Translations under genes and position numbers: made by a program
Shown here: piece after piece, positions 13,736-30,460 of the stretch
Layout of the letters: every line of letters begins with the position of its first letter
How positions within the stretch are numbered: the first letter of the stretch is position 1
Assembly: GCA_017618195.1 (NCBI GenBank)
Contig: JAFZUW010000053.1
Location: 62,001 to 126,000, forward strand
Reading direction: 5' to 3'
DNA length: 64,000 nt
Source: Lachnospiraceae bacterium
Lineage (GTDB): Bacteria > Bacillota > Clostridia > Lachnospirales > Lachnospiraceae
The notes under the pieces: model-generated
What the model was told of the DNA's origin: nothing
What the model saw: the letters and a program-made list of their open reading frames with translations, nothing else
Databases searched by the model: none

Positions 13736-13777
13736 AAAACACAAAAATCGGCTGCAACAACAAGCGTATTGCAACCG
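13736..13777 (-). terminator. Riboswitch expression-platform terminator
   Basis: On the - strand CGGTTGCAA pairs with TTGCAGCCG (nine pairs, one wobble) and is followed by ATTTTTGTGTTTT. Its 5' arm overlaps the 3' end of the aptamer, so the two folds should be mutually exclusive. Confidence 0.8.
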
Positions 13778-13870
13778 AACTATCATAGCGGAATAAGGTG
13801 TTTCAATCCAATTTGCCGCGTTAGACTCCAAGTTTTGCGTCTCCGCGTTTCCGCGAATTTGCCCCGTCTC
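13771..13870 (-). promoter_or_regulatory. Cyclic-di-GMP-I (GEMM-I) riboswitch
   Basis: Read on the - strand, the leader has GGGGCAAAT, then a stem capped by a GAAA tetraloop (TTCGCG-GAAA-CGCGGA), then GACGCAAA, a short ACT/AGT helix and CTAA, followed by ATGATAGTTCGGTTGC. This order and spacing match the GEMM-I consensus (GGGCAAA, GNRA loop, GACGCAAAG, CUAA, and the tetraloop-receptor region AUGAUAGCCAGGUUGCC). It lies between a candidate promoter and a terminator, 130 bases before the ATG. Because the terminator arm overlaps the aptamer end, ligand binding would be expected to favour read-through; the direction is inference. Confidence 0.82.
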
Positions 13871-13908
13871 GTTTCCCCCATAGGCAGTCAAAGCCTATAA
13901 TGAAGATT

Positions 13909-14045: not shown

Positions 14046-14633
14046 TTACGACGAATACATCCGGATGATCTCGTCCGCGATCTGAAGCCGCGGCACACAG
14101 CGGTCCATTGCCTGTTTCTCGATGTAGCGGTGCGCTTCGGGCTCGGACATGTTCAGTTCGCTGATTAAAAGCCATTTGGCTCTGTTAACCTGACGGATTT
14201 CCTTCATCTTGTCTTCAAAGGACGTCACTTTCTTCTCGGAAAGGCGGAGGCGTTCGCGGGATGCCGCCATCCAGGCTAGAGCAACCGCGGTCGTCGCACG
14301 GGAAAGCGGTTTCGCAAGCACATATACTCCGTGCACGACGGAGCGCTCAAAAAACTCAGGGTAGTCCTCATTTTTCACCAAAAGCAGCGGGATCGAGTTC
14401 TTCTCGGCCGCCACATCCACGGAAAGACGCAGGCCGCTTCCGTCCAAAAGAGGAGCGTTGATGATGACGAAATCGAAGGTCTGCTCCGCAAGCATACGGT
14501 TGGCCGCGCTGATCGAGCGGACCGCATGCACCGGCTCATAACGGTTTGCGGGAAGCATGGAACGCATCGTTTCCGCAAAGCTGTCCGAAGAGGATACGAG
14601 AAGGACACTGTAAACTCGGATTTCAAGTCCCAT
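14046..14633 (-). CDS. ANTAR-domain antiterminator with pseudo-receiver (NitR-like)
   Basis: This 195-residue protein has an N-terminal receiver-like domain (about 8-118), a linker helix and a C-terminal ANTAR RNA-binding domain (about 134-190, with AKWLLISELNMSEPEAHRYI and the following helix). The usual phospho-acceptor Asp is replaced by Asn59 (DFVIINAPLLDGSG) and the N-terminal acidic pair by serines (LLVSSSDS); the Lys in LAKPLS is kept. It therefore probably does not respond to phosphorylation, like AmiR. ANTAR proteins bind hexaloop hairpins and prevent intrinsic termination, and such hairpins head both nitrogen operons at 21215-21533. The gene closes the operon downstream of the glutamine synthetase, as in clostridial glnA-nitR clusters. 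Confidence 0.9.
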   Translation of the reverse strand: MGLEIRVYSVLLVSSSDSFAETMRSMLPANRYEPVHAVRSISAANRMLAEQTFDFVIINAPLLDGSGLRLSVDVAAEKNSIPLLLVKNEDYPEFFERSVVHGVYVLAKPLSRATTAVALAWMAASRERLRLSEKKVTSFEDKMKEIRQVNRAKWLLISELNMSEPEAHRYIEKQAMDRCVPRLQIADEIIRMYSS

Positions 14634-14679: not shown

Positions 14680-15891
14680 TTATTCGTTCTTACAATAGAT
14701 CCGTACGACCTCTTCCGGCAGATTGGCCCGGACAAATTCGCTCGCCGCGGCAATCGCCTTCGCTTTCGCCAGGCTTTCGGGAAGCTTCTTAAGCCCCGCA
14801 AGCTCGGCCTCTTCTGCGCGGAACAAATTGATGGCCGCGGGATCGCAAAGTTTCGTGCCTTTTTTGATCGCATCCGTTGCCGCATGGATCAATAAGGCAA
14901 ATACGAGGTACGGGTTGGCAGTCGGATCGGCGGACCGAAGCTCCATTCTGCGGGATCCTCCGGTTACGGCAGGGATACGCACAAGCTGGGAGCGGTTCTC
15001 ATGAGACCACGAGATGTATCCGGGCGCCTTGCGGAGTCCGAGACGGCGGTAGGAATCCTCGGTCGGATTCAGAAATGCCGTAATTTCCTCGGTCCGTTCC
15101 AAAACTCCGGCGATCATTCCTTCAAACGTCTTGTCGTCCTGCGGATCAACGGAAATATTGATATGGAAGCCGTTGCCGGGCATATCCGGAATCGGCTTCG
15201 GCGAGAAATCCGCATACAGCCCGTTCCGCGCCGCAATCGTGCGGACAACGGTCTGGAACGTCATCGCCTGATCGGCCGCCGTCAGAGCGTCCGAATAATG
15301 GAAATCGATTTCATTCTGGCCGGGGCCTTCCTCATGGTGGGAGCTCTCCGGACTGATACCCATCTGCTCGAGGGTGAGGCAGATCTCACGGCGGATGTTT
15401 TCGCCGCGGTCCTCGGGCGCAATGTCCATATATCCTGCCTGATCATACGGAATCGAGGTTCTGTGACCCTTTTCATCCAATTCAAACAGATAAAACTCCT
15501 GCTCCGCGCCGAACCGAAACGAGAAACCTTCCTTGGCCGCATCCGCGACCGCTTCTTTTAAAACACGTCTGGTATCACATTCAAAGGGGGTTCCGTCGGG
15601 ATAAGTGATGTTGCAGAACATCCTCACAACCCGTCCGTGCTCCGGTCTCCAAGGCAGCGGAGTCAGCGTGTCCGGTTCCGGATGAAGGATCAGGTCCGAA
15701 CGCGACTCATCGCCGAAACCGGTGATGGCCGATGCGTCAAATGCCACGCCGTGCGTAAACGCCCGCCGCAGCTCCTCCGCCGGAATGGACGTGTTCTTCT
15801 GGCGTCCGAACACATCGCAAAAGGCGAGGCGGACAAATTTGACATCCTCCTCTGCTACATATTGAAGTATTTCTCTCTCAGAACAATTCAT
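14680..15891 (-). CDS. glnA: Glutamine synthetase type I-like protein
   Basis: This 403-residue protein has an N-terminal beta-Grasp domain (about 1-100) and a catalytic domain. Metal-site motifs are recognisable in FGAEQEFYLF, EGPGQNEIDF and GNGFHINISV, and the substrate loop in SWSHENRSQLVRIPA. It is shorter than usual GSI (440-470), and the classic GSGMHxHxS is altered to GNGFHINIS. It thus belongs to the divergent GSI branch seen in clostridial glutamate synthase clusters; activity on glutamate and ammonia is likely but not certain. No adenylylation-type Tyr site is evident. It is the sixth gene of the operon and is followed by the ANTAR regulator. Confidence 0.85.
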   Translation of the reverse strand: MNCSEREILQYVAEEDVKFVRLAFCDVFGRQKNTSIPAEELRRAFTHGVAFDASAITGFGDESRSDLILHPEPDTLTPLPWRPEHGRVVRMFCNITYPDGTPFECDTRRVLKEAVADAAKEGFSFRFGAEQEFYLFELDEKGHRTSIPYDQAGYMDIAPEDRGENIRREICLTLEQMGISPESSHHEEGPGQNEIDFHYSDALTAADQAMTFQTVVRTIAARNGLYADFSPKPIPDMPGNGFHINISVDPQDDKTFEGMIAGVLERTEEITAFLNPTEDSYRRLGLRKAPGYISWSHENRSQLVRIPAVTGGSRRMELRSADPTANPYLVFALLIHAATDAIKKGTKLCDPAAINLFRAEEAELAGLKKLPESLAKAKAIAAASEFVRANLPEEVVRIYCKNE

Positions 15892-15971: not shown

Positions 15972-16697
15972 TTAGTTTGCTACATACAGCTGCTTGTACG
16001 GATTGCGGCTGTCAGGCGTAACGACCGTAAACGGTGCATCCATGACCTGATCCGCATCACATCCGAACAGTCCGCAGTATTCTTCCACATATTCGCGGAT
16101 TGCCGCAAGATCCTGCGCCTCCGCCGGTCTTGCCGTTACCTGCCACGGGAACGTGATGTCCTTCGCATCCGTACGGAGGTACATGGTTCCGCCGTGCATT
16201 CCCGTACAAGGGAAATTTCCGACGATCTTCTTACCCTTTGACGCCTCATCCTGCAAGCCGAGCACAACGATCACTCCGCCTGCCTGATATTCGCCGAGAA
16301 AGCTTCCGCAGGAGCCTCCGATCACCATAACCGGAACCTTCTCCTTGTAAGCCTTCATGTGGATTCCCGCACGATATCCCGCGTTGCCGCGCACGTAGAT
16401 CCGGCCGCCGCGCATCGCATAACCGGCTGCATCGCCGATATTGCCGTGCACCACGATCCGGCCCGCATTCATCGTATCGCCGACCGCGTCCTGCGCATTG
16501 CCGCGCACCACGATCTCCGCGCCGTTCAGATACGCTCCGAGCGCATTGCCGGGCGTTCCTTCGATCGTAATGTTCTTTCCGGACATGCCTGCGCCGATAA
16601 ACCGCTGTCCAAGCGCGCCCGTAAGGGTACAATCGCCGTTTTCACGCAATTTTTCGTTTACTTCCCGATATCCGAGCTTTGTAATATCGACTTTCAT
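15972..16697 (-). CDS. Glutamate synthase domain 3-like (GXGXG) protein
   Basis: This 241-residue protein is a parallel beta-helix of the GltB C-terminal/FwdC type, with repeated glycine turns such as GNAQDAVGDTMNAG, GNIGDAAGYAMRGG and GNAGYRAGIHMK. In the archaeal-style split glutamate synthase it supplies the structural domain 3 that is fused in bacterial GltB. Its start overlaps the stop of the upstream oxidoreductase (TAATG), indicating tight coupling. It is expected to assemble with the FMN, amidotransferase, ferredoxin and flavoprotein modules encoded upstream. Confidence 0.9.
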   Translation of the reverse strand: MKVDITKLGYREVNEKLRENGDCTLTGALGQRFIGAGMSGKNITIEGTPGNALGAYLNGAEIVVRGNAQDAVGDTMNAGRIVVHGNIGDAAGYAMRGGRIYVRGNAGYRAGIHMKAYKEKVPVMVIGGSCGSFLGEYQAGGVIVVLGLQDEASKGKKIVGNFPCTGMHGGTMYLRTDAKDITFPWQVTARPAEAQDLAAIREYVEEYCGLFGCDADQVMDAPFTVVTPDSRNPYKQLYVAN

Positions 16698-17929
16698 TAT
16701 ACAGCACCTCCGAACTTTTTTCTACGGGCTTCTTGGGAAAATATCAAACTGCTCGCCCGCTGCTTCGCAAGTTCAAAATCAATCGATGACAGTTTCGTCT
16801 TATCTCTGATCAACGCCGTGTAAATGCCGGCTCTTCCGGTTTCTCCGATCAGCATGTAGCCGATCAGCCGGTCATCCTTTGTAAAGAATCTTTTTAAGAT
16901 GCGGCCGTCACGCTCTTCCGTGCATTCGCCGTCATAGCAGCCCGCCGACATAATGTGGAAACCGAAAAATCCGACCGAGTTCATCGGAATTCCGGTATCG
17001 TACGTAATCTCGCCGCCCGCCATGTTCACACCGGCCGTGCGGCCCTGCATGTATGCGTTCGGAAGGATTGCCAGCACGCGGTTTGCATCGATCGATGCGT
17101 CATAGCCTTCCGCGCAGTCGCCTGCGGCATAGATTCCGGGAACGGACGTTTCCATGTTCCGCCCGACCACGATTCCGCGGTTCACCGTTCCTCCGATGTC
17201 TTTGATGAGCCCGATATTGGCGCGTACGCCGACCGCCAGTACCAATATGTCAAATGCGACTTCCTTCCCGCTCTTCATAATCGCGGTATTTCCGGCAAAT
17301 TCCGCCACGCTGTCGGAAAGCAGGAAGCTGATGCCGTTTTCCTCCAGATGTTCCTGAACGATTCCCGCGCAGGTCTGATCGAGAATACTTGAAAGCACGC
17401 GGTCCGCCAGGTCGCAAACCGTGATTGAACCTACCCGGTCACGGATTCCTTCGGCGCATTTTAAGCCGATCAGGCCGGCTCCGACGATCAGCACCTTCGC
17501 GTCCTTCGTGAGAACCTTCTCCAACGCAAGCGCGTCATCGAGCGTCATAAAGCCGAACTTCTTCTCCACGGTTTCGAGCCCCTTCATCGGCGGCACGAAC
17601 GGAGAGGATCCAGCTGCCACGCAGATATCGTCATACGGCAGCTCCGTTCCGTCCGAAAGCACGACAACCTTGCGCTCCGGATCGATGCGGTCCGCCGAGA
17701 CTCCGTAACGGACCTCACAGCCGTTCTTTTCATAAAAGTCCGCATCACGGTAACGCATGCGCTCCGTGTCGGTCTTTCCTTCCAGATAATAGGAAATCAG
17801 CGGTCTTGAGTAGACCGGATGATCCTCCTTCGAGACTACCGTGATTGCGTCTTCACGGTTTAAGCAGCGGATGCCTTCGATACAGCCTACGGCAGCCGTT
17901 CCGTTTCCGATGATCACATGTCTTTTCAT
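16697..17929 (-). CDS. NAD(P)/FAD-dependent oxidoreductase of the split glutamate synthase
   Basis: This 410-residue pyridine nucleotide-disulfide-type flavoprotein has an N-terminal FAD-binding GNGTAAVGCIEG (residues 8-19) and a second dinucleotide fold VGAGLIGLKCAEG at about residue 150. The FAD-contacting motif GIYAAGDCAEG lies near residue 262. No redox CxxxxC pair is seen, as in nitrite-reductase/rubredoxin-reductase-like members. In this operon it probably feeds electrons through the four-cluster ferredoxin to the FMN subunit, taking the place of GltD. The start overlaps the ferredoxin stop by four bases. Confidence 0.88.
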   Translation of the reverse strand: MKRHVIIGNGTAAVGCIEGIRCLNREDAITVVSKEDHPVYSRPLISYYLEGKTDTERMRYRDADFYEKNGCEVRYGVSADRIDPERKVVVLSDGTELPYDDICVAAGSSPFVPPMKGLETVEKKFGFMTLDDALALEKVLTKDAKVLIVGAGLIGLKCAEGIRDRVGSITVCDLADRVLSSILDQTCAGIVQEHLEENGISFLLSDSVAEFAGNTAIMKSGKEVAFDILVLAVGVRANIGLIKDIGGTVNRGIVVGRNMETSVPGIYAAGDCAEGYDASIDANRVLAILPNAYMQGRTAGVNMAGGEITYDTGIPMNSVGFFGFHIMSAGCYDGECTEERDGRILKRFFTKDDRLIGYMLIGETGRAGIYTALIRDKTKLSSIDFELAKQRASSLIFSQEARRKKFGGAV

Positions 17930-18363
17930 ACGTCCTCCCGCTCCTCATATACGATTGCTTTGTTCGGACAGCCTTGTACACAGGCAGGCGCGCCGCACGT
18001 GTTCTCAAGACAAAGCTCACATTTCTGCATCATTCCGTCCTCTGCGGGGGCAAGCGCTCCGTAAGGACATACAAGCACGCAGGTAAGGCAGCCCACGCAT
18101 TTGTTCCGATTGATCTTAACGACGCCGTCTTCCTTGCGGATTGCTCCGGCTATGCAGCTGCGGACGCAGATCGGATCCTGGCAGTGCCGGCATGATACGG
18201 CAAATGTGATCCGGTCGTCGCCTTCGACGTGGATGCGGGGGTAGATCCTGCGCCCTTTCAGGGCTTCCGGCATCGATTTGATTCCGGAATTGGCCCATGC
18301 GCAGTTATATTCGCACAAATGGCATCCGAGACACCACTCTTCGTTGACATACACTCTTTTCAT
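17926..18363 (-). CDS. Ferredoxin-like protein with four [4Fe-4S] cluster motifs
   Basis: This protein of about 145 residues has cysteine groups CLGCHLCEYNC, CRHCQDPICVRSC, CVGCLTCVLVC and CELCLENTCGAPACVQGC, which together can hold four [4Fe-4S] clusters in the DmsB/HycB pattern. It likely carries electrons between the flavoprotein and the FMN domain of the split glutamate synthase. The start MKRVYVNEEWC is preferred because relatives begin there; an in-frame ATG four codons upstream exists. It lies about 100 bases after the FMN-subunit gene, the largest gap in this operon apart from the leader. Confidence 0.9.
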   Translation of the reverse strand: MKRVYVNEEWCLGCHLCEYNCAWANSGIKSMPEALKGRRIYPRIHVEGDDRITFAVSCRHCQDPICVRSCIAGAIRKEDGVVKINRNKCVGCLTCVLVCPYGALAPAEDGMMQKCELCLENTCGAPACVQGCPNKAIVYEEREDV

Positions 18364-18465
18364 ATGTTTTCGCATTATCCGACCAAAATGTTCGGCAATC
18401 GGACGTTCCTCTCTCCCGGGTCCTCCGGGGAATCTTGCTTCCTCCGTTTCGGATCGGCCTTCCGC

Positions 18466-19971
18466 TTACTCTCCCGCATGCGAGATGCCGAGTATCTCCA
18501 GTTCCTTCTCGGTTAAGCCGACGCCGCGAAGCATCAGCCGGTTTCCGCGAAGCGCTTCAATCGAGTTGATACCCATGCCGCCGAGGATTTCCTTGATCTC
18601 ATGGTTCCAGGCGTTCATCAGGTTTACAAGCCTTGCGCTTCCGATATCGGGATTCAGACGCTTAACGAGATCCGGGCGCTGCGTCGCGATACCCCAGTTA
18701 CATTTGCCGCTCTGGCACGTACGGCACAGATGGCAGCCGAGCGCCAGCAGGGCAGCCGTTGCGACATAACAGGCATCGGCACCGAGTGCGATCGCCTTTA
18801 CGACGTCCGCCGCGCTTCGGATGGAACCGCCGACAACGAGCGATACGTTTCCGCGGATGCCTTCGTCACGAAGCCGCTGGTCCACGGACGCAAGCGCAAG
18901 CTCGATCGGAATTCCGACGTTATCGCGGATTCTGGTGGGCGCCGCTCCGGTACCTCCGCGGAAACCGTCGATCGCGATGATGTCCGCGCCGCTTCTTGCG
19001 ATACCGCTTGCGATTGCCGCAATATTATGAACCGCAGCCACCTTTACGATGACCGGTTTCTTATAATTGGTTGCTTCCTTGAGGGAGAAGACAAGCTGTC
19101 TTAAGTCCTCAATGGAATAAATGTCATGATGCGGTGCCGGCGAGATTGCGTCGGAACCTTCGGGGATCATTCTCGTACGGGATACGTCACCGACGATCTT
19201 GGCTCCCGGCAAATGCCCGCCGATACCGGGCTTTGCGCCCTGTCCCATCTTGATCTCGACCGCCGCACCTGCTTCGAGATACGACTCATGTACGCCGAAA
19301 CGTCCGCTCGCAACCTGTACGATCGTGTTCGGTCCGTATACGTAGAAGTCTTCGTGAAGTCCGCCCTCACCGGTGTTATAAAGAATGCCGAGCTCCGTTG
19401 CCGCGCGTGCAAGCGATGCATGCGCGTTGTAACTGATCGAACCGTAGCTCATTGCGGAGAACATTACAGGCATCGAAAGCTCGATCTGGGGCTCCAGCTT
19501 GCAGGAAAGCTTTCCGTCCGCATCCCTTGTCACGCGCTGCGGCTTCTTGCCGAGGAACACCTTCGTCTCCATCGGTTCGCGGAGCGGATCGATCGGAGGG
19601 TTGGTTACCTGGGAAGCGTTGATCAGGATCTTGTCCCAGTATACCGGCAGCGGTTTCGGGTTACCCATGGAGGAAAGCAGCACGCCGCCGCTGTCCGCCT
19701 GTTTGTATATTTCTTTAATGTAATCTTCCTGCCAGTTCGCATTTTCCCGAAGCCTGCAGTCGCTCTTTACGATCTTCAGCGCCCTGGTCGGGCAGAGCGA
19801 AACGCAGCGCTGGCAGTTCACGCATTTGCTTTCATCGCTGATCATCACGCCGCGTTCTTCCGAATAACTGTGCACCTCATTGGCGCACTGTCGTTCGCAG
19901 ACCCGGCAGGCGATGCAGCGGTTCTCGTTTCGAACCACTTCAAATTCCGGATAGATATAATTGACAGCCAT
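18466..19971 (-). CDS. Glutamate synthase FMN/Fe-S subunit (archaeal GltB type)
   Basis: This 501-residue protein has an N-terminal pair of [4Fe-4S] motifs (CIACRVCERQC and CVNCQRCVSLC) and a TIM-barrel FMN domain (about 85-470). It carries the family signatures EIKMGQGAKPGIGGHLPG, IAIDGFRGGTGAAPT and CHLCRTCQSGKCNWGIATQ, the last supplying a 3Fe-4S-type cysteine set. It should convert 2-oxoglutarate plus ammonia, delivered by the separate amidotransferase, to glutamate in the cytoplasm. The gene starts two bases after the amidotransferase stop. Confidence 0.94.
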   Translation of the reverse strand: MAVNYIYPEFEVVRNENRCIACRVCERQCANEVHSYSEERGVMISDESKCVNCQRCVSLCPTRALKIVKSDCRLRENANWQEDYIKEIYKQADSGGVLLSSMGNPKPLPVYWDKILINASQVTNPPIDPLREPMETKVFLGKKPQRVTRDADGKLSCKLEPQIELSMPVMFSAMSYGSISYNAHASLARAATELGILYNTGEGGLHEDFYVYGPNTIVQVASGRFGVHESYLEAGAAVEIKMGQGAKPGIGGHLPGAKIVGDVSRTRMIPEGSDAISPAPHHDIYSIEDLRQLVFSLKEATNYKKPVIVKVAAVHNIAAIASGIARSGADIIAIDGFRGGTGAAPTRIRDNVGIPIELALASVDQRLRDEGIRGNVSLVVGGSIRSAADVVKAIALGADACYVATAALLALGCHLCRTCQSGKCNWGIATQRPDLVKRLNPDIGSARLVNLMNAWNHEIKEILGGMGINSIEALRGNRLMLRGVGLTEKELEILGISHAGE

Positions 19972-19972
19972 A

Positions 19973-21067
19973 TCAATACGCTCCTTCCTTCACTTTCACG
20001 ATCACCGGTTCGCCGCCGGCCGGAGCCCAGATGTTCGTTACGTCCGGCTCCATGACGCGTATCGCCGCTTCCTCGCTGGCGATGTAAACCTTGTCGTCCT
20101 TCTCGCCGACAACCATCGACCGCAGTTTCAGGCGGTCGTTTAAGGCCATCAGTCCGCCGTCAAATCCGAGAACGATGGAGAACGGACCGGTTACGAGCAG
20201 GCTCGGAAATACGGTACGCAGATACTGAAGTTTCTTCTTTTCGTATTCGTCCGTCTTTCCTTCGATCGTGCTCCAGAACGGAGCAGCGATCACATTGGCC
20301 GCCTCGGTAAGCGTTAATCCCTGTACGCGAAGGAGATAATCCAAAATGTATGTAATAACCTCGGTATCGGTCTGCAGATTGCATTTGTATCCGAACATTT
20401 CAATGAAACGGCGGTTGGCGTCGTACGAGGAAATCTCGCCGTTGTGGACAACCGAGTAATCAAGAAGCGTGAACGGATGCGCGCCGCCCCACCAGCCGGG
20501 GGTGTTGGTCGGATAACGGCCGTGCGCGGTCCAGCAGTAGCCTTCGTATTCATCGAGGCGGTAGAAACGGCCGACATCCTCGGGGAAGCCGACAGCCTTG
20601 AACGTTCCCATGTTCTTGCCGCTCGAGAAAACGTACGCGCCTTCCATTTCCGTGTTGATCTTCATAACCGTGCGCGCCACGAATTCCTTTTCGTCAAGCT
20701 GCAGATCCGCAAGCACCGACTTAAGAGGCGTTACGAAATATCGCCAGATGATCGGCTCGTCCGTAATCTCCGGAATCTTTCTGGTCGGGATCAGCTCGCC
20801 TTTGACAACCTCAAAATGTTCCTTAAGAAAAGCTTCGCATGCCTTTCTCGTGTCACGGCAGTCAAAAAACAGGTGAAACGCATAGTAGTCTTTGTACTGC
20901 GGATATATTCCGTAGCCGGCAAATCCGCCGCCGAGACCGTTGCTGCGGTCATGCATCGGCTTCATCGACTCTATGATCGCCTGTCCGCTCATCTTCTTTC
21001 CTTCTTTTGAAATCACTGCTGCGATGGCGCAACCGGAGGGGATGCGCACCTGACCTTCCTGTTTCAT
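19973..21067 (-). CDS. Glutamate synthase amidotransferase subunit (class II GATase)
   Basis: This 364-residue protein has the class II amidotransferase fold of GltB domain 1. The nucleophile is probably Cys13 in IPSGCAIAAV, exposed only if the first 12 residues are processed or if the fold tolerates an extension. Other landmarks are GGGFAGYGIYP, GRYPTNTPGWWGGAHPF and VVHNGEIS. It releases ammonia from glutamine for the adjacent FMN subunit. The ATG at 21067 is chosen because AGAAAGGAA lies about eight bases upstream; earlier in-frame starts would run into the leader terminator. It is the first gene of the left nitrogen operon. Confidence 0.92.
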   Translation of the reverse strand: MKQEGQVRIPSGCAIAAVISKEGKKMSGQAIIESMKPMHDRSNGLGGGFAGYGIYPQYKDYYAFHLFFDCRDTRKACEAFLKEHFEVVKGELIPTRKIPEITDEPIIWRYFVTPLKSVLADLQLDEKEFVARTVMKINTEMEGAYVFSSGKNMGTFKAVGFPEDVGRFYRLDEYEGYCWTAHGRYPTNTPGWWGGAHPFTLLDYSVVHNGEISSYDANRRFIEMFGYKCNLQTDTEVITYILDYLLRVQGLTLTEAANVIAAPFWSTIEGKTDEYEKKKLQYLRTVFPSLLVTGPFSIVLGFDGGLMALNDRLKLRSMVVGEKDDKVYIASEEAAIRVMEPDVTNIWAPAGGEPVIVKVKEGAY

Positions 21068-21162: not shown

Positions 21163-21226
21163 TAAACAAAAAGAAAAGGCGCTCATCGATACACAGACAT
21201 TTGCCTGTCCATCAATGAACGCCTTT
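21163..21226 (-). terminator. Leader terminator of the left nitrogen operon
   Basis: On the - strand AAAGGCGTTCATTGAT pairs with ATCGATGAGCGCCTTT (16 pairs with two wobbles) and is followed by TTCTTTTTGTTT, before the amidotransferase gene. Its 5' arm is shared with the hexaloop hairpin, so only one can form. Confidence 0.88.
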
Positions 21227-21232
21227 GCTCAT
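21215..21232 (-). promoter_or_regulatory. ANTAR-type hexaloop hairpin, left leader
   Basis: On the - strand ATGAGC and GTTCAT form a six-pair stem closing the loop AAAGGC, with A at loop position 1 and G at position 4, the recognition feature of ANTAR proteins. It begins one or two bases after the predicted transcription start and overlaps the leader terminator. Confidence 0.8.
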
Positions 21233-21240
21233 TTGCCCGA

Positions 21241-21269
21241 ATTATACGCCCGTCCTTTTCATATGTCAA
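21241..21269 (-). promoter_or_regulatory. Perfect-consensus promoter, left nitrogen operon
   Basis: On the - strand TTGACA (21264-21269), a 17-base spacer and TATAAT (21241-21246) match the housekeeping consensus exactly. The strength suggests control after initiation, by the leader terminator. Confidence 0.93.
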
Positions 21270-21388
21270 GTGTTTTTTTCGGCACTTTAAAGCACTGAAG
21301 AGAACGGCCCTCTGCGTAGCCGCCGCATCACGAACGAGGCAACGAAGGAAGCCTGAACCAGGCGTAAAAATTTACCCAAAATTGGGGG

Positions 21389-21417
21389 TTGACAACCCGA
21401 AAACCCGGGTATATAAT
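21389..21417 (+). promoter_or_regulatory. Perfect-consensus promoter, glnN side
   Basis: TTGACA (21389-21394), a 17-base spacer and TATAAT (21412-21417) match the consensus exactly. The inverted repeat CCCAAAATTGGG (about 21375-21386) abuts the -35 and could be an operator. TATAATTCGG is shared with the divergent promoter. Confidence 0.93.
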
Positions 21418-21426
21418 TCGGCACAT

Positions 21427-21444
21427 AAAGGCAATGGCGTCTTT
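21427..21444 (+). promoter_or_regulatory. ANTAR-type hexaloop hairpin 1, glnN leader
   Basis: AAAGGC and GTCTTT form a six-pair stem (one wobble) around the loop AATGGC, with A1 and G4. It lies a few bases after the predicted start of transcription and shares its 3' strand with the following terminator. Confidence 0.8.
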
Positions 21445-21474
21445 GAGTTACACACTCAGAGGCGCTTTCTCTTT
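21437..21474 (+). terminator. Leader terminator 1, glnN
   Basis: GCGTCTTTGAGT pairs with ACTCAGAGGCGC (12 pairs with two wobbles, loop TACAC) and is followed by TTTCTCTTT. It competes with hexaloop hairpin 1. Confidence 0.82.
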
Positions 21475-21513
21475 AACGAAAAAGAAAAAAGAATATACCA
21501 GTTTCCGGACTAT

Positions 21514-21533
21514 GAAAGGCAAAGGCGTCTTTC
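21514..21533 (+). promoter_or_regulatory. ANTAR-type hexaloop hairpin 2, glnN leader
   Basis: GAAAGGC and GTCTTTC form a seven-pair stem around the loop AAAGGC (A1, G4). An outer stem GTTTCCGG (21501-21508) with CCGGAAAC (21568-21575) could enclose this whole element and end next to the ribosome site. Confidence 0.8.
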
Positions 21534-21566
21534 GTGCCATACGGCATGAGAGGCGCCTTCTTTTTT
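21524..21566 (+). terminator. Leader terminator 2, glnN
   Basis: GGCGTCTTTCGTGCC pairs with GGCATGAGAGGCGCC (15 pairs including wobbles, loop ATAC) and is followed by TTCTTTTTT. It competes with hexaloop hairpin 2 and ends 25 bases before the glnN start. Confidence 0.9.
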
Positions 21567-21590: not shown

Positions 21591-23693
21591 ATGGAAACGA
21601 AAAAAGTATCGGATTATTTCGGATGTCAGGTGTTTGACGACAGAGTAATGAAGGCAACCCTTTCCGCAAAAGTTTATGCTTCCCTGCGCCGCACGATCGA
21701 TGAAGGCGCGGAGCTGGATCCCGGCGTTGCGAATGCCGTTGCACAGGCCATGAAGGATTGGGCGCTCGACAAAGGCGCAACACATTTTACCCATTGGTTC
21801 CAGCCGCTCACCGGCATCACCGCCGAGAAGCACGACAGTTTCATTTCCCCGTCTCCGGACGGCGGCGTGATCATGGAATTTTCCGGCAAAGAGCTGATCA
21901 AGGGCGAGCCGGATGCAAGCTCCTTCCCGTCGGGCGGTCTTCGCGCCACCTTCGAGGCAAGAGGCTACACCGCATGGGATCCTACCTCGTATGCGTTTAT
22001 TAAAGGAAAGACCCTTTGCATTCCGACCGCGTTCTGCTCCTACGGCGGACACGCTCTTGATAAGAAGACGCCTCTTCTTCGTTCCATGGAAGCGCTCAGC
22101 AAGCAGGCTCTCCGAATCCTGAAGCTGTTCGGCAACACGACCGCGAAGCGCGTTATTTCTTCGGTAGGCCCCGAGCAGGAATATTTCCTTATTACGAAAG
22201 AAATGTACGAGAAGCGCCCCGACCTTCGTTTCACGGGCCGCACGCTCTTCGGTTCCAAGCCTCCGAAAGGACAGGAACTGGATGACCATTACTTCGGCGT
22301 TATCAAGCCCGGTGTTCAGGCTTACATGGAAGACCTGAATGAAGAACTTTGGAAGCTCGGCATTCTCGCAAAGACCGAGCATAACGAAGTGGCTCCCGCA
22401 CAGCATGAGCTCGCTCCGATCTATTCGACCACGAACATCGCAACCGATCATAACCAGCTGACGATGGAAATCATGCAGAAGGTTGCTGCCAAGCACGGTC
22501 TCGTATGTCTGCTTCATGAGAAGCCGTTTGCAGGCGTAAACGGTTCCGGAAAGCATAACAACTGGTCCATCGCAACCGACAACGGCCAGAACCTCCTTTC
22601 TCCCGGAGATACCCCTTATGAGAATGCACAGTTCCTGCTTTTCCTGTGTGCGGTTATCAAAGCCGTTGACGATTATCAGGATTTGCTTCGTCTTTCCGTT
22701 GCAACTGCCGGTAACGACCACCGTCTCGGTGCCAACGAAGCACCGCCCGCCGTTATCTCGATGTTCCTCGGCGACGAGCTGAATGCAGTTCTTGAAGCCA
22801 TTGATACCGATACGCCTTATGCAGGTGCTCAGAAGACCGTCATGAAGCTCGGCGTAGATGTTCTGCCGAAGTTCAGCCGTGACACGACCGACCGTAACCG
22901 TACGTCACCGTTCGCATTTACCGGCAACAAATTCGAATTCCGTATGCTCGGTTCCTCGAACAGCATTGCATGCGCGAACATCATGCTGAACAGTGCCGTA
23001 GCCGAATCTCTGAAAATTTACGCAGACCGCCTGGAGGGTGCCGAAGATTTCGAATCCGCTCTTCATGCGATGATCAAGAAGACCATCAAGGATCACAAGA
23101 GGATCATCTTCAACGGAAACGGTTATGACGATGCATGGATTAAGGAAGCAACCGAAGTCCGCGGCCTTTCGAACTACCGCACGACGGCCGACTGCATGCC
23201 TCACCTGTTGGATAAGAAGAATGCGGACATGCTGATCAGCCACGGCGTATTCACGATGGAAGAGCTGAAGTCCCGTGTAGACATCATGCTTGAGAACTAC
23301 TGCAAGTCCGTTACCATCGAGGCAAATACGATGATCGACATGGCAAAGACCCAGATCGCTCCGGCGATTGACCGTTACGCTTCCGATCTTGCCAAGGACG
23401 TTGCCGCAAGAAAAGCGGTTGACGAATCCCTTGCCTGCACGAGAGACCGCAAGCTGATCTCCCGTCTGTCCTCTCTCGTTGATACGATCGATGCGAGAAC
23501 CGAAACGCTTGAGAAGGCGCTGACTTCGCTTCACGGAGCGGAAGACGTTATTTCCGAATCCGCAATGATCCGCGACCGCGTTCTGATCGCCATGAGCGAA
23601 CTCCGTATCGCCTGCGACGAAGCAGAGACGATCACCGCCAGAGAGTACTGGCCTTACCCGACTTACGGTGACATCCTGTTCAGCGTAAAATAG
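21591..23693 (+). CDS. glnN: Glutamine synthetase type III
   Basis: This 700-residue protein has the length and motifs of the GSIII family: [66 protein letters not shown] and [18 protein letters not shown]. It makes glutamine from glutamate, ammonia and ATP as a large cytoplasmic oligomer. The ATG has AAAGGAG six bases upstream; an in-frame upstream ATG lies inside the leader terminator and is rejected. Expression appears controlled by two tandem hexaloop/terminator pairs. The ammonium transporter gene follows 85 bases later. Confidence 0.96.
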
Positions 23694-23717
23694 TCCATCC
23701 ATCCCCTCCGGTGCGGA

Positions 23718-23755
23718 CATGCAGTTCGACTCCGATTTGCCCGCACCGGAAATTT
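23718..23755 (+). other. Intergenic hairpin between glnN and amtB
   Basis: CCGGTGCGG pairs with CCGCACCGG around a loop of about 20 bases. Only AAATTTAAAAG follows, so it is more likely a stabilising or partially attenuating hairpin than a strong terminator. Confidence 0.5.
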
Positions 23756-23778
23756 AAAAGACAAGGAGGTGCATTGCT

Positions 23779-25536
23779 ATGACAATCACCGAAGAAATCA
23801 CAAAAATCGTTACACAAGAAGCTTTTGGAATCTGGTTCCTGATCGGAGCCGCACTGGTCTTCCTCATGCAGGCTGGTTTTGCAATGGTTGAGACCGGTTT
23901 TACCCGTGCAAAGAATGCCGGTAACATTATCATGAAGAACCTTATGGACTTCTGTATCGGCACTGTAGTATTTGTCCTGCTCGGCTTTAGCCTTATGATG
24001 TCCGAGAATTACCTCTTAGGATTCATCGGCGTTCCGAATCTTCAGATTTTTACGGATTTCGGCTCTTTCCTGAGTGACGGTATGGCTCCCTCCTTCGTTT
24101 TCAACCTTGTGTTCTGCGCGACGGCAGCCACCATCGTTTCCGGTTCCATGGCGGAACGTACGAGATTCATCTCTTATTGTGTTTATTCCGCAGTTATTTC
24201 CCTTTTCGTATATCCGGTCGAGGCAGGCTGGGTATGGAACAGCCAGGGCTGGCTTGTACAGCTCGGATTCCATGATTTCGCAGGTTCCGCGGCCATTCAC
24301 TCCGTCGGCGGTATCACCGCTTTGATCGGTGCGATCATGGTAGGTCCCCGTCTCGGCAAATACAACCGCGACAAGGACGGTAAAGTTACAAAGGTTAACG
24401 CAATTCCCGGTCATGCAATTACGCTCGGCGCTCTCGGATGCTTCATCCTCTGGTTCGGCTGGTACGGCTTCAACGGCGCTGCCGCATGGGACGGCGTTTC
24501 TCTTGCAAGCATCTTCGTTACGACGACCATCGCTCCCGCGGTTGCAACATGCACCACGCTCCTGTTCACCTGGATTAAAAACGGCAAGCCCGATGTTTCC
24601 ATGTGTTTGAACGCTTCCCTTGCAGGTCTTGTAGGTATTACCGCAGGCTGTGACGCTCTGGATGCTCTCGGAGCAACAATCGTAGGTATCGTTTCCGGTA
24701 TCCTCGTAACCGTAGTTGTTGAACAGCTCGACCTGAAGTGCCATATCGACGATCCCGTCGGTGCCGTAGGCGTTCACTTCGCAAACGGTGTTTGGGGTAC
24801 GATCGCAGTCGGCCTTCTTGCAAATCCCGATGCTCCCGCAGGTCTGAAGGGTCTCTTCTATACCGGCGATGCAAAGCTTCTCGGTGTACAGACCCTCGGT
24901 ATTGCAGCAATCCTTGCTTGGACCGCCGCATTGATGTTTATCACATTTGTCATCATTAAGAAAACGCTCGGCCTCCGCGTTACCGTGGAAGAAGAGATCC
25001 GCGGTCTGGACAGCACGGAGCACGGTCTTCCGAGTTCTTACGCAGATTTCGCTCCCGCGGTTACCGAACTTACCTACGCTTTCCCGGAAGCTGCCGATGC
25101 GGTTGCGGTTACCGGCGACACTCCTGTTGCCGAGGCTGTTCCGGTTAAGAAAGTTGCTTCGGTTGTCGATGACGGATCGCCGAAGTTCACCAAGATCGAA
25201 ATCGTATGCCGCGAGTCCCGCTTCGAGCAGTTAAAGAGCGCGATGATGGATATCGGAATCACCGGCATGACAGTTTCCCACGTACTCGGCTGCGGCGTGC
25301 AGAAGGGTAAGCCGGAGTTCTATCGAGGCGTTCCGGTTGAGGCAACGCTGCTTCCGAAGATCCAGGTCGACATCGTTGTTGTTGCGGTTCCCGTACGTAA
25401 GGTTATCGAGACCGCCAAGAAAGTTCTCTACACCGGCCATATCGGCGACGGCAAGATCTTCGTATACGATGTTGAGAACGTAATCAAGGTCCGCACCGGT
25501 GAAGAAGGCTATGATGCTTTACAGGATGTGGAATAA
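23779..25536 (+). CDS. amtB: Ammonium transporter fused to a C-terminal PII-like domain
   Basis: The first 420 residues are an 11-helix Amt channel with the typical MQAGFAMVETGFTRAKN start, SGSMAERTRF, the first pore His in AAIHSVGG and the second in VGVHFANGVWG. After a linker rich in Ala and Val comes a PII signalling domain (about 468-575), KFTKIEIVCRESRFEQLKSA followed by CGVQKGKPEFYRGV. The T-loop lacks the uridylylated Tyr51 position (VPV replaces AEY). The protein should import ammonium at the membrane and gate itself through the tethered PII, which replaces a separate GlnK. AAGGAGGT lies nine bases before ATG. Confidence 0.94.
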   Translation: MTITEEITKIVTQEAFGIWFLIGAALVFLMQAGFAMVETGFTRAKNAGNIIMKNLMDFCIGTVVFVLLGFSLMMSENYLLGFIGVPNLQIFTDFGSFLSDGMAPSFVFNLVFCATAATIVSGSMAERTRFISYCVYSAVISLFVYPVEAGWVWNSQGWLVQLGFHDFAGSAAIHSVGGITALIGAIMVGPRLGKYNRDKDGKVTKVNAIPGHAITLGALGCFILWFGWYGFNGAAAWDGVSLASIFVTTTIAPAVATCTTLLFTWIKNGKPDVSMCLNASLAGLVGITAGCDALDALGATIVGIVSGILVTVVVEQLDLKCHIDDPVGAVGVHFANGVWGTIAVGLLANPDAPAGLKGLFYTGDAKLLGVQTLGIAAILAWTAALMFITFVIIKKTLGLRVTVEEEIRGLDSTEHGLPSSYADFAPAVTELTYAFPEAADAVAVTGDTPVAEAVPVKKVASVVDDGSPKFTKIEIVCRESRFEQLKSAMMDIGITGMTVSHVLGCGVQKGKPEFYRGVPVEATLLPKIQVDIVVVAVPVRKVIETAKKVLYTGHIGDGKIFVYDVENVIKVRTGEEGYDALQDVE

Positions 25537-25577
25537 ACCATCAAATCAATAAGCTTCTGAAAAAACGAATTTTAACC

Positions 25578-25615
25578 GGTGTCGGCGGCATGACCTTTGC
25601 GGGACATGGCGCCGA
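25578..25615 (+). other. Strong leader hairpin upstream of asnB
   Basis: Two 15-base arms, beginning GGTGTCGGCG and ending CGCCGATGCC, pair with one mismatch and two wobbles around a loop of about 12 bases. No T-run follows, so it is not an intrinsic terminator. It ends about 38 bases before the asnB ATG and may affect RNA processing or translation. Confidence 0.5.
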
Positions 25616-25652
25616 TGCCGAGTATTATAAACAAGAAACGGGGAATTCAGTT

Positions 25653-27236
25653 ATGTGTTCAATTATTGGATATTGCGGGCCGATTTCAGACCCGAGAGCT
25701 TTTACGGAAGGCTTTTCGCAGACGGTGTCCCGCGGTCCCGACGATACGCGCATCGTAAAGACCGGCGACGGCCTCCTCGGCTTTCACCGGCTTGCGATCA
25801 TGGATCTCACCGATGACGGAATGCAGCCTTTTACTTTGGACGGAGATGCGGTTGTCTGCAACGGCGAGCTGTACGGCTTTGCCGCGGAGCGTGATAAACT
25901 GATTGCAAAGGGTTATCAGTTTACAAGCGACAGCGATTGTGAAATCCTCCTTCCGATGTACCGTGAATACGGTACGGATATGTTCGCAAAACTCGACGCG
26001 GAATTTGCCTGCGTCATCTATGACGGAAAGACCGGCGAATATATCGCCGCACGTGACCCGATCGGAATCCGTCCCCTTTATTACGGCTACGACCGGACCG
26101 GCGTAATCATCTTCGCGAGCGAGCCGAAGAACCTTACCGGGCTTTGCGAACATATTCTGCCCTTCCCTCCCGGCCACTACTATAAGGACGGCCAGTTCCA
26201 CTGCTACGAGGACATTTCTTCTCCGAAAACCGTCTGCCGCGACGATCTGGAGACCGCATGCACGAAAATTCGCGAAAAACTGGTCGCAGGCGTTGACAAA
26301 CGTCTCGTGGCTGACGCTAATGTCGGATTTCTTCTTTCCGGCGGCCTTGATTCCTCTCTCGTATGCGCAATCGCTGCCAAGAGGAGCGACAAGCCGATCC
26401 GCACATTTGCCATCGGCATGAGCGAAGACGCGATCGACCTGAAATATGCGAAAACCGTTGCCGACTATATCGGCGCAGACCATACGGAAGTTTATATGAC
26501 CCCCGACGAGGTTCTGGCTTCCCTTTCGGACGTGATCCGGCTTCTCGGCACCTATGACATTACGACGATCCGCGCCAGCATGGGCATGTATCTCGTTTGC
26601 AAGGCCATTCACGAGCATACCGACGTGCGCGTTCTGCTTACCGGCGAGATTTCCGATGAGATCTTCGGCTACAAATACACCGACTTCGCCCCGAGCGCGG
26701 AAGCGTTCCAGAAGGAAGCCGAAAAGCGCGTTCACGAGCTTCACATGTACGACGTGCTTCGTGCCGACCGCTGCATCAGCGTAAACTCTTTAGAGGCGCG
26801 CGTTCCGTTCGGCGATCTTGATTTTGTCCGCTACGTCATGAGTCTTGACCCCGAGATGAAGGTAAACCGTTACGGCAAAGGCAAATACCTTCTCCGCCAC
26901 GCTTTCGAAGGCCTCGGATACCTTCCGGATTCGATTCTGTGGCGTGAAAAAGCCGCATTTTCCGACGCCGTAGGCCACTCGATGGTCGACTACCTCAAGG
27001 AATATGCGGAATCGCAGTATACCGATGAGGAATTTGAAAAGAGGCGCGTCCGCTTCACGCATGCGCAGCCGTTCACGAAAGAATCGCTTCTGTACCGTGA
27101 GATCTTCGAGCGGTATTATCCCGGCCAGTCCGATATGATCGTCGACTTCTGGATGCCGAACCGTTCATGGGAAGGCTGCAACGTAAACGATCCGTCGGCG
27201 AGAGTGCTTTCGAACTACGGCGCCAGCGGTCAGTAA
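25653..27236 (+). CDS. asnB: Asparagine synthase B (glutamine-hydrolysing)
   Basis: This 527-residue protein starts MCSIIGYCG, with Cys2 as the glutaminase nucleophile after Met removal. The class II amidotransferase domain (about 1-190) includes FHRLAIMDL and CNGELYG. The synthetase domain has the PP-loop LLSGGLDSSLVCA (about 224) and ASMGMYLVCKAI with LLTGEISDEIFGYKY. It makes asparagine from aspartate, ATP and glutamine. The ATG is chosen because a free N-terminal Cys is needed; the in-frame upstream extension lies in the leader hairpin. It is part of a run of glutamine-consuming enzymes. Confidence 0.95.
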   Translation: MCSIIGYCGPISDPRAFTEGFSQTVSRGPDDTRIVKTGDGLLGFHRLAIMDLTDDGMQPFTLDGDAVVCNGELYGFAAERDKLIAKGYQFTSDSDCEILLPMYREYGTDMFAKLDAEFACVIYDGKTGEYIAARDPIGIRPLYYGYDRTGVIIFASEPKNLTGLCEHILPFPPGHYYKDGQFHCYEDISSPKTVCRDDLETACTKIREKLVAGVDKRLVADANVGFLLSGGLDSSLVCAIAAKRSDKPIRTFAIGMSEDAIDLKYAKTVADYIGADHTEVYMTPDEVLASLSDVIRLLGTYDITTIRASMGMYLVCKAIHEHTDVRVLLTGEISDEIFGYKYTDFAPSAEAFQKEAEKRVHELHMYDVLRADRCISVNSLEARVPFGDLDFVRYVMSLDPEMKVNRYGKGKYLLRHAFEGLGYLPDSILWREKAAFSDAVGHSMVDYLKEYAESQYTDEEFEKRRVRFTHAQPFTKESLLYREIFERYYPGQSDMIVDFWMPNRSWEGCNVNDPSARVLSNYGASGQ

Positions 27237-27243
27237 GCGCTGA

Positions 27244-28890
<1,647 letters not shown>

Positions 28891-28898
28891 GAATCAAA

Positions 28899-28930
28899 AA
28901 AGGCTGCCGGAAACCCGGTTCCAGTCTTTT
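28899..28930 (+). terminator. Weak terminator after pyrG
   Basis: AAAGGCTG and CCGG pair with CCGG and CAGTCTTT across a small bulge (loop AAAC). The T-run is only CTTTT, so partial read-through into purF is expected. Confidence 0.55.
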
Positions 28931-28955
28931 CAAATCGGTCCGCACGGATTATAAT
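28927..28955 (+). promoter_or_regulatory. Candidate purF promoter
   Basis: TTTTCA (28927-28932), 17 bases and a perfect TATAAT (28950-28955) lie 65 bases before purF. Confidence 0.55.
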
Positions 28956-29019
28956 ATGCCTTGCGGATCAATCTGTTTTCAGCCGGATACGGACTAAGCC
29001 AGAATCTGAGGTATTGAAA

Positions 29020-30432
29020 ATGAGTGATCTTCATGAAGAATGCGGTGTCTTCGGCGTATTTGCCCCTGCACCGGCCGCGGTTGCGCAGACCGCATATTAC
29101 GGGCTCTATGCCCTTCAGCACCGCGGACAGGAAAGCTGCGGCATCGTCGTAAACGATGACGGCGTTTTCGTTTCCCATAAGGACGTCGGTCTTGTGAACG
29201 ACGTATTCCCGAAACAGGTGCTTGCCTCCTTCCCCGACGCAACAATGGCGGTCGCCCACACGCGTTACGCGACGACGGGCGGCAACGGCCGGAACAACGT
29301 CCAGCCGATTGAGGTAAACCACCAGAAAGGGAAGATGGCGATCGCCCACAACGGAAACCTCGCGAACGCCGCCGAATTAAGAAGCGAACTCGAACTTTCG
29401 GGTGCGATCTTCCATACGTCAAGCGATACCGAGATCATCGCCTATCTTGTAACGAAGGAGCGGCTGCGCACGCCCTCGATCGAGGAAGCCGTGAGCCGTG
29501 CCGTAGAATCGTTGGAAGGCGCATTTTCCCTTATAGTAATGTCTGCGCAGAAGATGATCTGCGTACGCGATCCGCACGGGTTCCGGCCGCTCTGCTACGG
29601 GCAGACCGAGGACGGCACCTATATCATTGCTTCCGAAACATGCGCCCTGCATGCGGTCGGCGCCATGCCGATCCGGGACGTGGAGCCGGGCGAGATGCTT
29701 GTATTCAGCAAGGACGGCATCGTTTCGAGGAAGGATCACTGCGGAACCGCACCGACGAGGCATTGTATTTTCGAATATATTTATTTCGCAAGACCCGATT
29801 CGGTCATTGACGGCGTTTCCGTGCATGCGGCACGCGTCCGTGCCGGAGAGGTGCTTGCCCAGACGCATCCGGCCGATGCCGATATCGTGATCGGCGTTCC
29901 CGACTCGGGACTGGATGCCGCGATCGGATTTGCCCGCAGCTCGGGAATCCCTTATGGGATCGGGCTGATTAAGAACAAATACATCGGCCGTACCTTTATC
30001 GCGCCGGCAGGCCGGATGGAAGCCGTCCGGATCAAGCTGGCGGCCGTCGCGGAGACGGTAAAGGATAAGCGGATCGTTCTGATCGACGATTCGATCGTAA
30101 GAGGTACGACAAGCGCGCACATCGTAAGGATGCTCCGCGAGGCAGGCGCCCGCGAGATCCACATGCGCGTTACCGCCCCGCCGTTTCTGCATCCGTGCTA
30201 TTACGGCACCGATATCGACTCGGAGGAGCATCTGATCGCATGCCGTCATACCGTTTCGGAGATCGCGGAGATGATCGGCGTCGATTCGCTCGGGTTCCTG
30301 CCGGTAGACGAACTGAACGTACTGGTCGGGAACAGCAATTTCTGCAGTGCCTGCTTCAGCGGCGAATACCCTACCGCGGTACCCGTTGACACGCGCAAAG
30401 ACCGCTTCGAGCAGCGGCTTTCAAAGAAGTAA
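29020..30432 (+). CDS. purF: Amidophosphoribosyltransferase
   Basis: This 470-residue enzyme has a short propeptide followed by the nucleophile Cys8 in EECGVFGVF, the class II glutaminase domain, and the PRPP-binding motif RIVLIDDSIVRGTTS near residue 350. C-terminal cysteines in NFCSACFSGEYP are those of the [4Fe-4S]-containing, Bacillus-type subgroup. It makes phosphoribosylamine, the first committed purine step. The ATG with GAGG seven bases upstream is preferred over a TTG two codons earlier. No other pur genes are nearby, which supports grouping by glutamine use rather than by pathway. Confidence 0.96.
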   Translation: MSDLHEECGVFGVFAPAPAAVAQTAYYGLYALQHRGQESCGIVVNDDGVFVSHKDVGLVNDVFPKQVLASFPDATMAVAHTRYATTGGNGRNNVQPIEVNHQKGKMAIAHNGNLANAAELRSELELSGAIFHTSSDTEIIAYLVTKERLRTPSIEEAVSRAVESLEGAFSLIVMSAQKMICVRDPHGFRPLCYGQTEDGTYIIASETCALHAVGAMPIRDVEPGEMLVFSKDGIVSRKDHCGTAPTRHCIFEYIYFARPDSVIDGVSVHAARVRAGEVLAQTHPADADIVIGVPDSGLDAAIGFARSSGIPYGIGLIKNKYIGRTFIAPAGRMEAVRIKLAAVAETVKDKRIVLIDDSIVRGTTSAHIVRMLREAGAREIHMRVTAPPFLHPCYYGTDIDSEEHLIACRHTVSEIAEMIGVDSLGFLPVDELNVLVGNSNFCSACFSGEYPTAVPVDTRKDRFEQRLSKK

Positions 30433-30460
30433 ATCTCTTAGGGAAAGGGATGGATGGAAC

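Follow-up and report, generated by a model that had tools for sequence, protein, structure and literature searches.

Single-hexaloop leaders as predicted ANTAR attenuators of divergent nitrogen operons in a Lachnospiraceae genome, with a glutamine synthetase-like protein as candidate sensor

Background

Two divergent nitrogen operons in a Lachnospiraceae genome raise the question of whether an ANTAR protein can govern transcription termination through a single RNA hexaloop, and of the partner from which such a protein would take its signal. In our view, nitrogen control in Clostridia is poorly known. The operons lie in a 64 kb stretch of DNA, the whole of which is called the window below, from a genome assembled as 2.75 Mb in 82 contigs. 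An earlier note on this DNA proposed that hexaloop hairpins of the ANTAR type compete with intrinsic terminators in both leaders, and that they do so as single units rather than as the adjacent pair of the known motif.

Leaders of glutamate synthase and glutamine synthetase (GS) genes were already predicted as ANTAR targets in 2012 (PMC3369931, PMC3369936). The described motif is a pair of hexaloops, P1 and P2, with a linker of 5-12 nt in eut (PMC3369931); a search for dual hexaloops in actinobacteria accepted linkers of 2-25 nt (PMC8164766). For EutV, deletion of P1 or lengthening of the linker is reported to have abolished or strongly cut induction or antitermination (PMC3369931, PMC8934654). 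The EutV structure paper concludes that one hexaloop is the minimal binding motif and that blocking termination requires contact with both members of the pair; it also calls for bioinformatic and experimental study of single hexaloops (PMC8934654).

Results

The left operon contains the glutamate synthase (glt) genes and, as the earlier note had stated, ends with the gene of an ANTAR protein; the right operon starts with glnN, the gene of a type III GS (Table 1). The right cluster (21591-34781, plus strand) consists of makers and users of glutamine: glnN, the ammonium transporter-PII fusion and asnB by Pfam, then pyrG, purF, carA and carB by reading of the ORF list. Elsewhere in the window, a c-di-GMP-I riboswitch (13767-13873, minus strand, 61.4 bits) precedes a 1440-aa ORF (9320-13642) with a long TEP repeat.

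Table 1. Positions of leader elements and genes in the window
Feature	Position	Strand	Details
ANTAR regulator	14046..14633	-	195 aa; pseudo-receiver and ANTAR domain; PF03861 52.7 bits, cut-off 27.3
GS-like 'GlnA'	14680..15891	-	403 aa; Lys in catalytic flap; candidate sensor partner
Left operon genes	15972..21067	-	Pfam: GATase class-II, glutamate synthase (FMN) domain, ferredoxin, pyridine-nucleotide oxidoreductase, GXGXG
glt intrinsic terminator with U tract	21168..21226	-	5' arm holds the hexaloop and the hairpin 3' arm
glt hexaloop hairpin	21214..21233	-	AATGAGC[AAAGGC]GTTCATT; single; from ~+2 of the predicted transcript
glt predicted transcription start	~21234	-	Predicted from the promoter match
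glt (left operon) promoter	21241..21269	-	TTGACA 21269-21264, 17 nt, TATAAT 21246-21241; 12/12 consensus match
glnN promoter	21389..21417	+	TTGACA-17-TATAAT; 12/12 match; predicted start ~21424
glnN hexaloop hairpin 1	21426..21445	+	TAAAGGC[AATGGC]GTCTTTG; 5' end of leader
glnN terminator 1 with U tract	21436..21473	+	Overlaps hairpin 1
Weak hexaloop	21470..21485	+	UCUUU[AACGAA]AAAGA; -0.9 kcal/mol; 25 nt 5' of hairpin 2
glnN hexaloop hairpin 2	21511..21536	+	TATGAAAGGC[AAAGGC]GTCTTTCGTG
glnN terminator 2 with U tract	21522..21566	+	Overlaps hairpin 2
GS type III (glnN), first gene of right operon	21591..23693	+	PF12437, PF00120, PF18318
Ammonium transporter-PII domain fusion	23779..25536	+	PF00909, PF00543

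All three hairpins of the earlier note, with loops AAAGGC (minus strand), AATGGC and AAAGGC (both plus strand), are present. The 3' arm of each doubles as the 5' arm of an intrinsic terminator, a sharing of strands that folding and scanning both bear out, the glt terminator being missed by a simple terminator scan. Folded in isolation, the hairpins reach -3.8 (glt), -4.8 (glnN 1) and -10.2 (glnN 2) kcal/mol; since 27, 13 and 1 of 200 shuffled sequences, respectively, fold equally well, the hairpins alone are unexceptional. The terminators reach -38.1, -19.1 and -33.0 kcal/mol in the same order (z-scores of -8.7, -5.0 and -6.2), with none of 200 shuffles as good for any of them. Judged by folding energies, the favoured fold in the leaders is thus termination. 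Scanning the window for an A..G.. hexaloop on a stem of at least 5 bp that overlaps a terminator returned three matches, all in these leaders, against three in total from 20 dinucleotide shuffles; a looser version of the scan gave a fourth, weak match at 46547. An Rfam search of the leaders found no family reaching its gathering score, and ranking by E-value yielded weak matches only, far below that score.

The predicted transcription start lies only 1-2 nt 5' of the first stem in both leaders. With the first hairpin beginning at about +2 of the predicted transcript, an upstream partner hexaloop could not be transcribed.

Using the window ANTAR protein as query, we fetched the loci of 80 relatives, the best match (73% identity) coming from an uncultured Lachnospiraceae MAG (L002). 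The window and these loci, with the locus of the window's own genome (L001) excluded, make up a scan set of 1.21 Mb. The A..G.. hexaloop with terminator exhibits 142 matches in 55 of the 81 sequences, and a number of the sequences lacking a match are short or cut contigs. Eleven other loop patterns yielded between 8 and 18 matches apiece. The earlier note had staked its proposal on conservation of the loops in relatives, and this conservation is found. The nearest downstream query gene of the 142 matches, some of which are chance matches beside the motif (e.g. in L002, L035 and L044), is glnN (49), the glt GATase gene (42), glnA (6), amt (4), pyrG (3) or GXGXG (1), with none for the remaining 37. 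Motif hairpins make up 21 of the cases lacking a query gene, several of them before gdhA-like genes, with single purA and purC cases. Hexaloop units, several in tandem, precede a glutamate dehydrogenase gene in L018, L023, L039, L041, L056, L065 and L068, the gene being identified by Pfam in L018 and by a similar N-terminus in the other six loci. Single cases were seen at purA (L028), purC (L039, tandem) and a PPDK_N gene (L066).

Among intact glt leaders, 41 of 43 contain at least one motif hexaloop and 39 of 43 exactly one. The motif is present in 42 of 44 intact glnN leaders, 18 with one hexaloop and 24 with two, the two loops being 66-127 nt apart. A promoter scoring at least 9.5/12 is located 7-11 nt 5' of the hairpin for 83 of 121 hairpins, including 40 of 41 at glt, compared with 6 of 3000 random positions; at least 21 of the 38 hairpins lacking a near-consensus promoter are second units of tandem leaders. 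By sequence comparison, then, the single-hexaloop design is conserved in Clostridia. Cultured relatives with the system include Mediterraneibacter massiliensis (L054) and Eubacterium sp. 14-2 (L044).

Stems and loops were analysed in the 121 of the 142 matches that keep the GC/GT core, amounting to 115 distinct 26-mers. The stem, A1/G4 and the core were all scan requirements, so that pairs 1-5 are paired by construction; likewise A1 and G4 occur in 115 of 115 distinct hairpins, both being demanded by the scan, and a G-U pair adjoins the closing C-G in all 115, as the filter required. Loop position 3, which was free to vary, is A in 77, T in 16, G in 15 and C in 7. The stems fall into two classes, ATGAGC/GTTCAT (glt, glnA) and AAAGGC/GTCTTT (glnN and others), each nearly fixed. 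The earlier note had read the differing stems and similar loops of the window as covariation; this argument is weak, since stems scarcely vary within a class and the pooled compensatory changes mainly amount to the contrast between the two classes.

Near-fixity within a class is also what a DNA-binding site would exhibit, and the ATGAGC-N6-GTTCAT near-palindrome spans about +3 to +20, where operators are classically placed. The inverted repeat after the -10 element might accordingly be a DNA operator for a repressor, with the terminators incidental. However, the second pair is G/T in 121 of 142 matches, which is a wobble pair in RNA but breaks a DNA palindrome; the other 21 are mostly chance matches, with few real-looking exceptions (L012, L016, L059). 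Moreover, the second units are too far downstream (66-127 nt) to be near the promoter, many with a terminator of their own, and the hexaloops track the gene of an ANTAR protein, a family whose known members bind RNA. We regard an operator as very improbable.

Another explanation of the leaders is attenuation driven by translation of a leader peptide that starts in the hairpin itself (ATG AGC AAA GGC GTT CAT). The 6-bp stem does open with ATG, GTG or TTG at about +3 in 48 of 48 glt/glnA-class hairpins (21232-21215, minus strand, in the window). Yet the median open frame is 15 codons, equal to that of the +2 frame, no conserved peptide is seen beyond the hairpin, stems of the AAAGGC class have no start codon there, and a start at about +3 leaves no place for a Shine-Dalgarno site. 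Translation from the hairpin is scarcely credible on these grounds.

It could still be that these leaders carry the known dual motif and that a second hexaloop was overlooked. The glnN leaders often hold two hexaloops in one RNA. Neither window leader has a second hexaloop at a short linker, with one exception missed by the earlier note: the weak A1/G4 hexaloop at 21470-21485, which sits 25 nt before hairpin 2, the longest linker allowed in the actinobacterial search. Being unconserved and derived from the terminator 1 U tract, this element is probably due to chance. An A1/G4 partner was found upstream of just 2 of 20 second units, the window's and that of L061 (24 nt away). Downstream, some A1/G4 hexaloop lies within 25 nt of 8 of 83 promoter-proximal hairpins, which is the level of six other loop patterns (2-9 of 83); among these first hairpins there is no excess of adjacent second hexaloops over the control patterns. 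Class-wide, a dual-hexaloop pattern matches at least 134 of 245 genomes, but a backward control pattern matches many too, which makes it uninformative. The position of the first hairpin at the predicted RNA 5' end, the wide spacing of the tandem loops and the exactly one motif match in nearly all glt leaders likewise speak against an overlooked pair, which we consider improbable. The comparison of leaders favours one hexaloop per terminator. The single units claimed by the earlier note therefore stand in the window and in relatives, with the weak hexaloop as the element it had left out.

Does the hexaloop follow the ANTAR gene beyond the fetched loci? PF03861 is present in 124 of 245 genomes of the class Clostridia. 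A strict promoter-plus-loop pattern exhibits 62 matches in 42 genomes; DNA was read for the 60 of these outside the window, terminators being sought there only with a stem of at least 4 bp. Promoter-proximal hexaloops with a stem of at least 5 bp occur in 19 genomes besides the window's, and 18 of the 19 encode an ANTAR protein (Fisher p 4e-5, kinship ignored). The exception, G043, exhibits hexaloops but no ANTAR gene was seen in it; one of its three hexaloops lies right beside a contig end (match at 20946-20999 of 21006), so the operon may continue on a missing piece. Another nine matches combine a 4-bp stem with a terminator, and every one of them comes from a genome that encodes ANTAR. Conversely, the strict form occurs in only 18 of the 124 ANTAR-positive genomes, and among 20 other glnA-ANTAR leaders of the class sample, only 5 combine a hexaloop with a terminator within the ~500 nt that precede glnA; in one of the 5, that of G222, a partner hexaloop may be present upstream. 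The single hexaloop is thus one design among others, common but not universal, and in sequence its presence tracks that of ANTAR genes. The competition between hexaloop and terminator proposed for both leaders is accordingly upheld as an architecture that relatives keep.

The ANTAR gene of the window is the only PF03861 match found in its genome. At the phospho-acceptor position (aligned with the Asp of Rv1626), 21 of 22 aligned relatives have Asn and one has His. With the acceptor Asp replaced, the receiver-like domain is a pseudo-receiver, so that the regulator is probably controlled by a bound protein rather than by phosphorylation. Under an inferred 2-residue numbering offset, several EutV RNA contacts have like residues here (Met172 as Met176, Lys143 as Arg147, Lys147 as Arg/Lys151) and Tyr164 corresponds to His168, as in AmiR. 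The position of EutV R142, a residue important for RNA binding (PMC8934654), is an invariant Ile.

A partner for this regulator was suggested by a finding that the earlier note did not contain. The ANTAR gene lies directly behind a GS-like gene in all 76 loci with upstream DNA, four others being cut by contig ends, and the pairing also holds where the glt genes do not adjoin. The GS-like protein matches PF00120 with 282.9 bits and stays below the TIGR00653 cut-off (335 vs 429 bits). Two other PF00120 matches in the source genome, glnN among them, have longer open frames (705 and 725 codons). Active-site positions are given in what we take to be Salmonella GS numbering. Of 13 tabulated positions, the window protein keeps 12, each of which is shared by at least 70 of the 71 full-length copies; the metal and substrate positions are retained, and Asp50 and Tyr179 are present in 71 of 71. 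The exception is the catalytic Glu of the flap (Glu304 in Bacillus subtilis GS; PMC9249791), which is Lys in 71 of 71. The change from Glu to Lys comes with Asp at the Arg62 position (65 of 71) in the window clade, a charge swap. A general correlation between flap and Arg62-loop changes is not supported by the tree, where three independent pairs were available and 0 or 1 agreed.

To place this loss among other GlnA proteins, 80 matches from the class sample were read (79 with readable flaps), selected across the identity range of those listed, and 13 active-site positions were scored in each. A copy was called ANTAR-linked when an ANTAR match lay within ~1.4 kb behind the GlnA gene on one contig; split pairs (G213, perhaps G011) therefore counted as unlinked. 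At least one active-site change is found in 35 of 63 linked copies vs 1 of 17 others (Fisher 2e-4, kinship ignored), the 63 including L246, which has no flap, was scored as lesion-free and was omitted from the tree. The flap change from Glu to Asp is the sole change in 3 of the 35. The one changed unlinked copy is that of G213; in that genome 297 bases separate the GS gene from a contig end, and the ANTAR gene is found where another contig begins, which makes linkage probable here as well. Beyond the flap, changes (metal ligands included) occur in 15 of 63 linked copies vs 0 of 17 (Fisher 0.03, kinship ignored). The metal ligands changed among the other ANTAR-linked copies are E131, E212, E220, E129, H269 and E357; R321 and R359 are changed in 0 of 80 copies. 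In the window genome's family, the linked GlnA copies L218 (G087) and L220 (G113) are altered at Asp50, the flap Glu, R339 and R344. Unlinked copies of the multi-copy genomes G042, G098, G207, G218 and G228 keep the flap Glu, as does the ANTAR-linked copy of G042 and G098. A GlnA tree, built with the flap and Asp50-loop columns left out and by a method that gives no direction, requires at least five changes between flap Glu and other residues and at least four between acidic and other residues, the flap states of L250 (D), L254 (E) and L242 (N) being assigned by reading the sequence.

These changes would also suit a catalytically active ligase that uses a different amine acceptor and plays no part in sensing, because the gamma-glutamyl-amine ligases GlnA4 and PauA7 likewise lack the flap Glu (PMC6529630). 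According to the same source, however, Asp50 and Tyr179 (the latter for PauA7) are not conserved in those enzymes, both being invariant here, and the metal ligands altered in other ANTAR-linked copies are common to such ligases; the pairing with ANTAR is, moreover, strict in the fetched loci. A ligase of this kind is possible but rather unlikely. The GS-like protein is probably a glutamine-sensing pseudoenzyme.

Discussion

Taken together, it is likely that both leaders are single-hexaloop ANTAR attenuators, with the GS-like partner as the best candidate sensor. The model built on the hairpins, terminators, promoter matches and gene pairings compared above is as follows; in it, we infer the transcription starts, the binding by ANTAR, the direction (antitermination), the sensing by the GS-like protein and the glutamine signal. 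By default, the nascent RNA would fold into the strong terminator and transcription would end before the first gene. The active ANTAR protein, encoded at the end of the left operon, would bind the A1/G4 hexaloop newly emerged at the RNA 5' end and hold the small hairpin, thereby withholding its 3' arm from the terminator and letting RNA polymerase read through. In the glnN leader the unit is repeated, so that two checks would have to be passed in series, and tandem units may tighten control. The GS-like protein, with most of its substrate pocket kept but the catalytic flap Glu lost, would retain the ANTAR protein or let it go, depending on glutamine. Its role as signal input is likely by analogy with AmiC, NasS and feedback-inhibited GS.

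The full combination of a GS-pseudoenzyme glutamine sensor, a phosphorylation-independent ANTAR protein, a regulon of single hexaloops at RNA 5' ends and repeated loss of catalysis in ANTAR-linked copies has about an even chance of being right. If it is, the regulon would comprise glutamate synthase, GSIII, the ammonium transporter, glutamate dehydrogenase, and purine and CTP genes, catalysis would have been lost several times through different lesions in ANTAR-linked GS copies, and Clostridia would have, in the GS-like partner, a nitrogen sensor of a new type. A sensor role would also explain why an apparently non-catalytic GS is retained beside other GS genes. Natural, widely conserved terminators with one hexaloop make the sufficiency of a single hexaloop directly testable, and a hexaloop at about +2 raises the question of how binding can be fast enough.

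In the literature searched (main texts, with few subscription journals), neither single-hexaloop terminators at +1 nor the pairing of an ANTAR protein with a GS pseudoenzyme was found described; the supplementary tables of the 2012 papers might list single-hexaloop cases. ANTAR leaders at nitrogen genes had already been predicted; the single-hexaloop form is apparently new. The sensor hypothesis attached to this hexaloop variant is the more novel of the two.

Among the closest known systems is EutV with the dual-hexaloop eut leaders of Enterococcus faecalis, the general ANTAR target of Ramesh et al. 2012 (PMC3369931), which also exhibit the A1/G4 hexaloop, the C-G closing pair followed by a U on the 3' side, a hairpin 3' arm common to an intrinsic terminator, and a link to nitrogen genes. 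The eut leaders, in contrast, have the P1/P2 pair with its linker of 5-12 nt, whereas here each terminator has a single hexaloop, placed at the predicted RNA 5' end, and tandem units stand far apart; the receiver of EutV is phosphorylated and that of the present regulator is a pseudo-receiver.

In AmiC-AmiR and NasS-NasT, an ANTAR protein is under the control of a ligand-binding partner, as would be the case here with a partner that is still a candidate. The folds of AmiC and NasS are of the binding-protein type, that of the candidate partner is the GS fold. The receiver of AmiR, like the present one, lacks the acceptor Asp (PMC3369936).

NitR and an antisense RNA are known at glnA of Clostridium acetobutylicum, and the GS-GOGAT cluster of C. 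thermocellum includes an ANTAR gene, Clo1313_2030, for which an antiterminator role was suggested (PMC4676874). By locus numbers this gene adjoins the GS gene Clo1313_2031, and the pathway is the same as here. The hexaloop architecture and the loss of GS catalysis are not described in the available part of that account (PMC4676874).

A GS reporting glutamine to a regulator has a functional parallel, in mode of working only, in the feedback-inhibited GS of Bacillus and others with GlnR and TnrA, where GS and the regulator GlnR come from one operon (PMC9249791). That GS is catalytically active and signals to DNA-binding regulators; the present one carries Lys in the flap and is encoded beside a regulator from an RNA-binding family.
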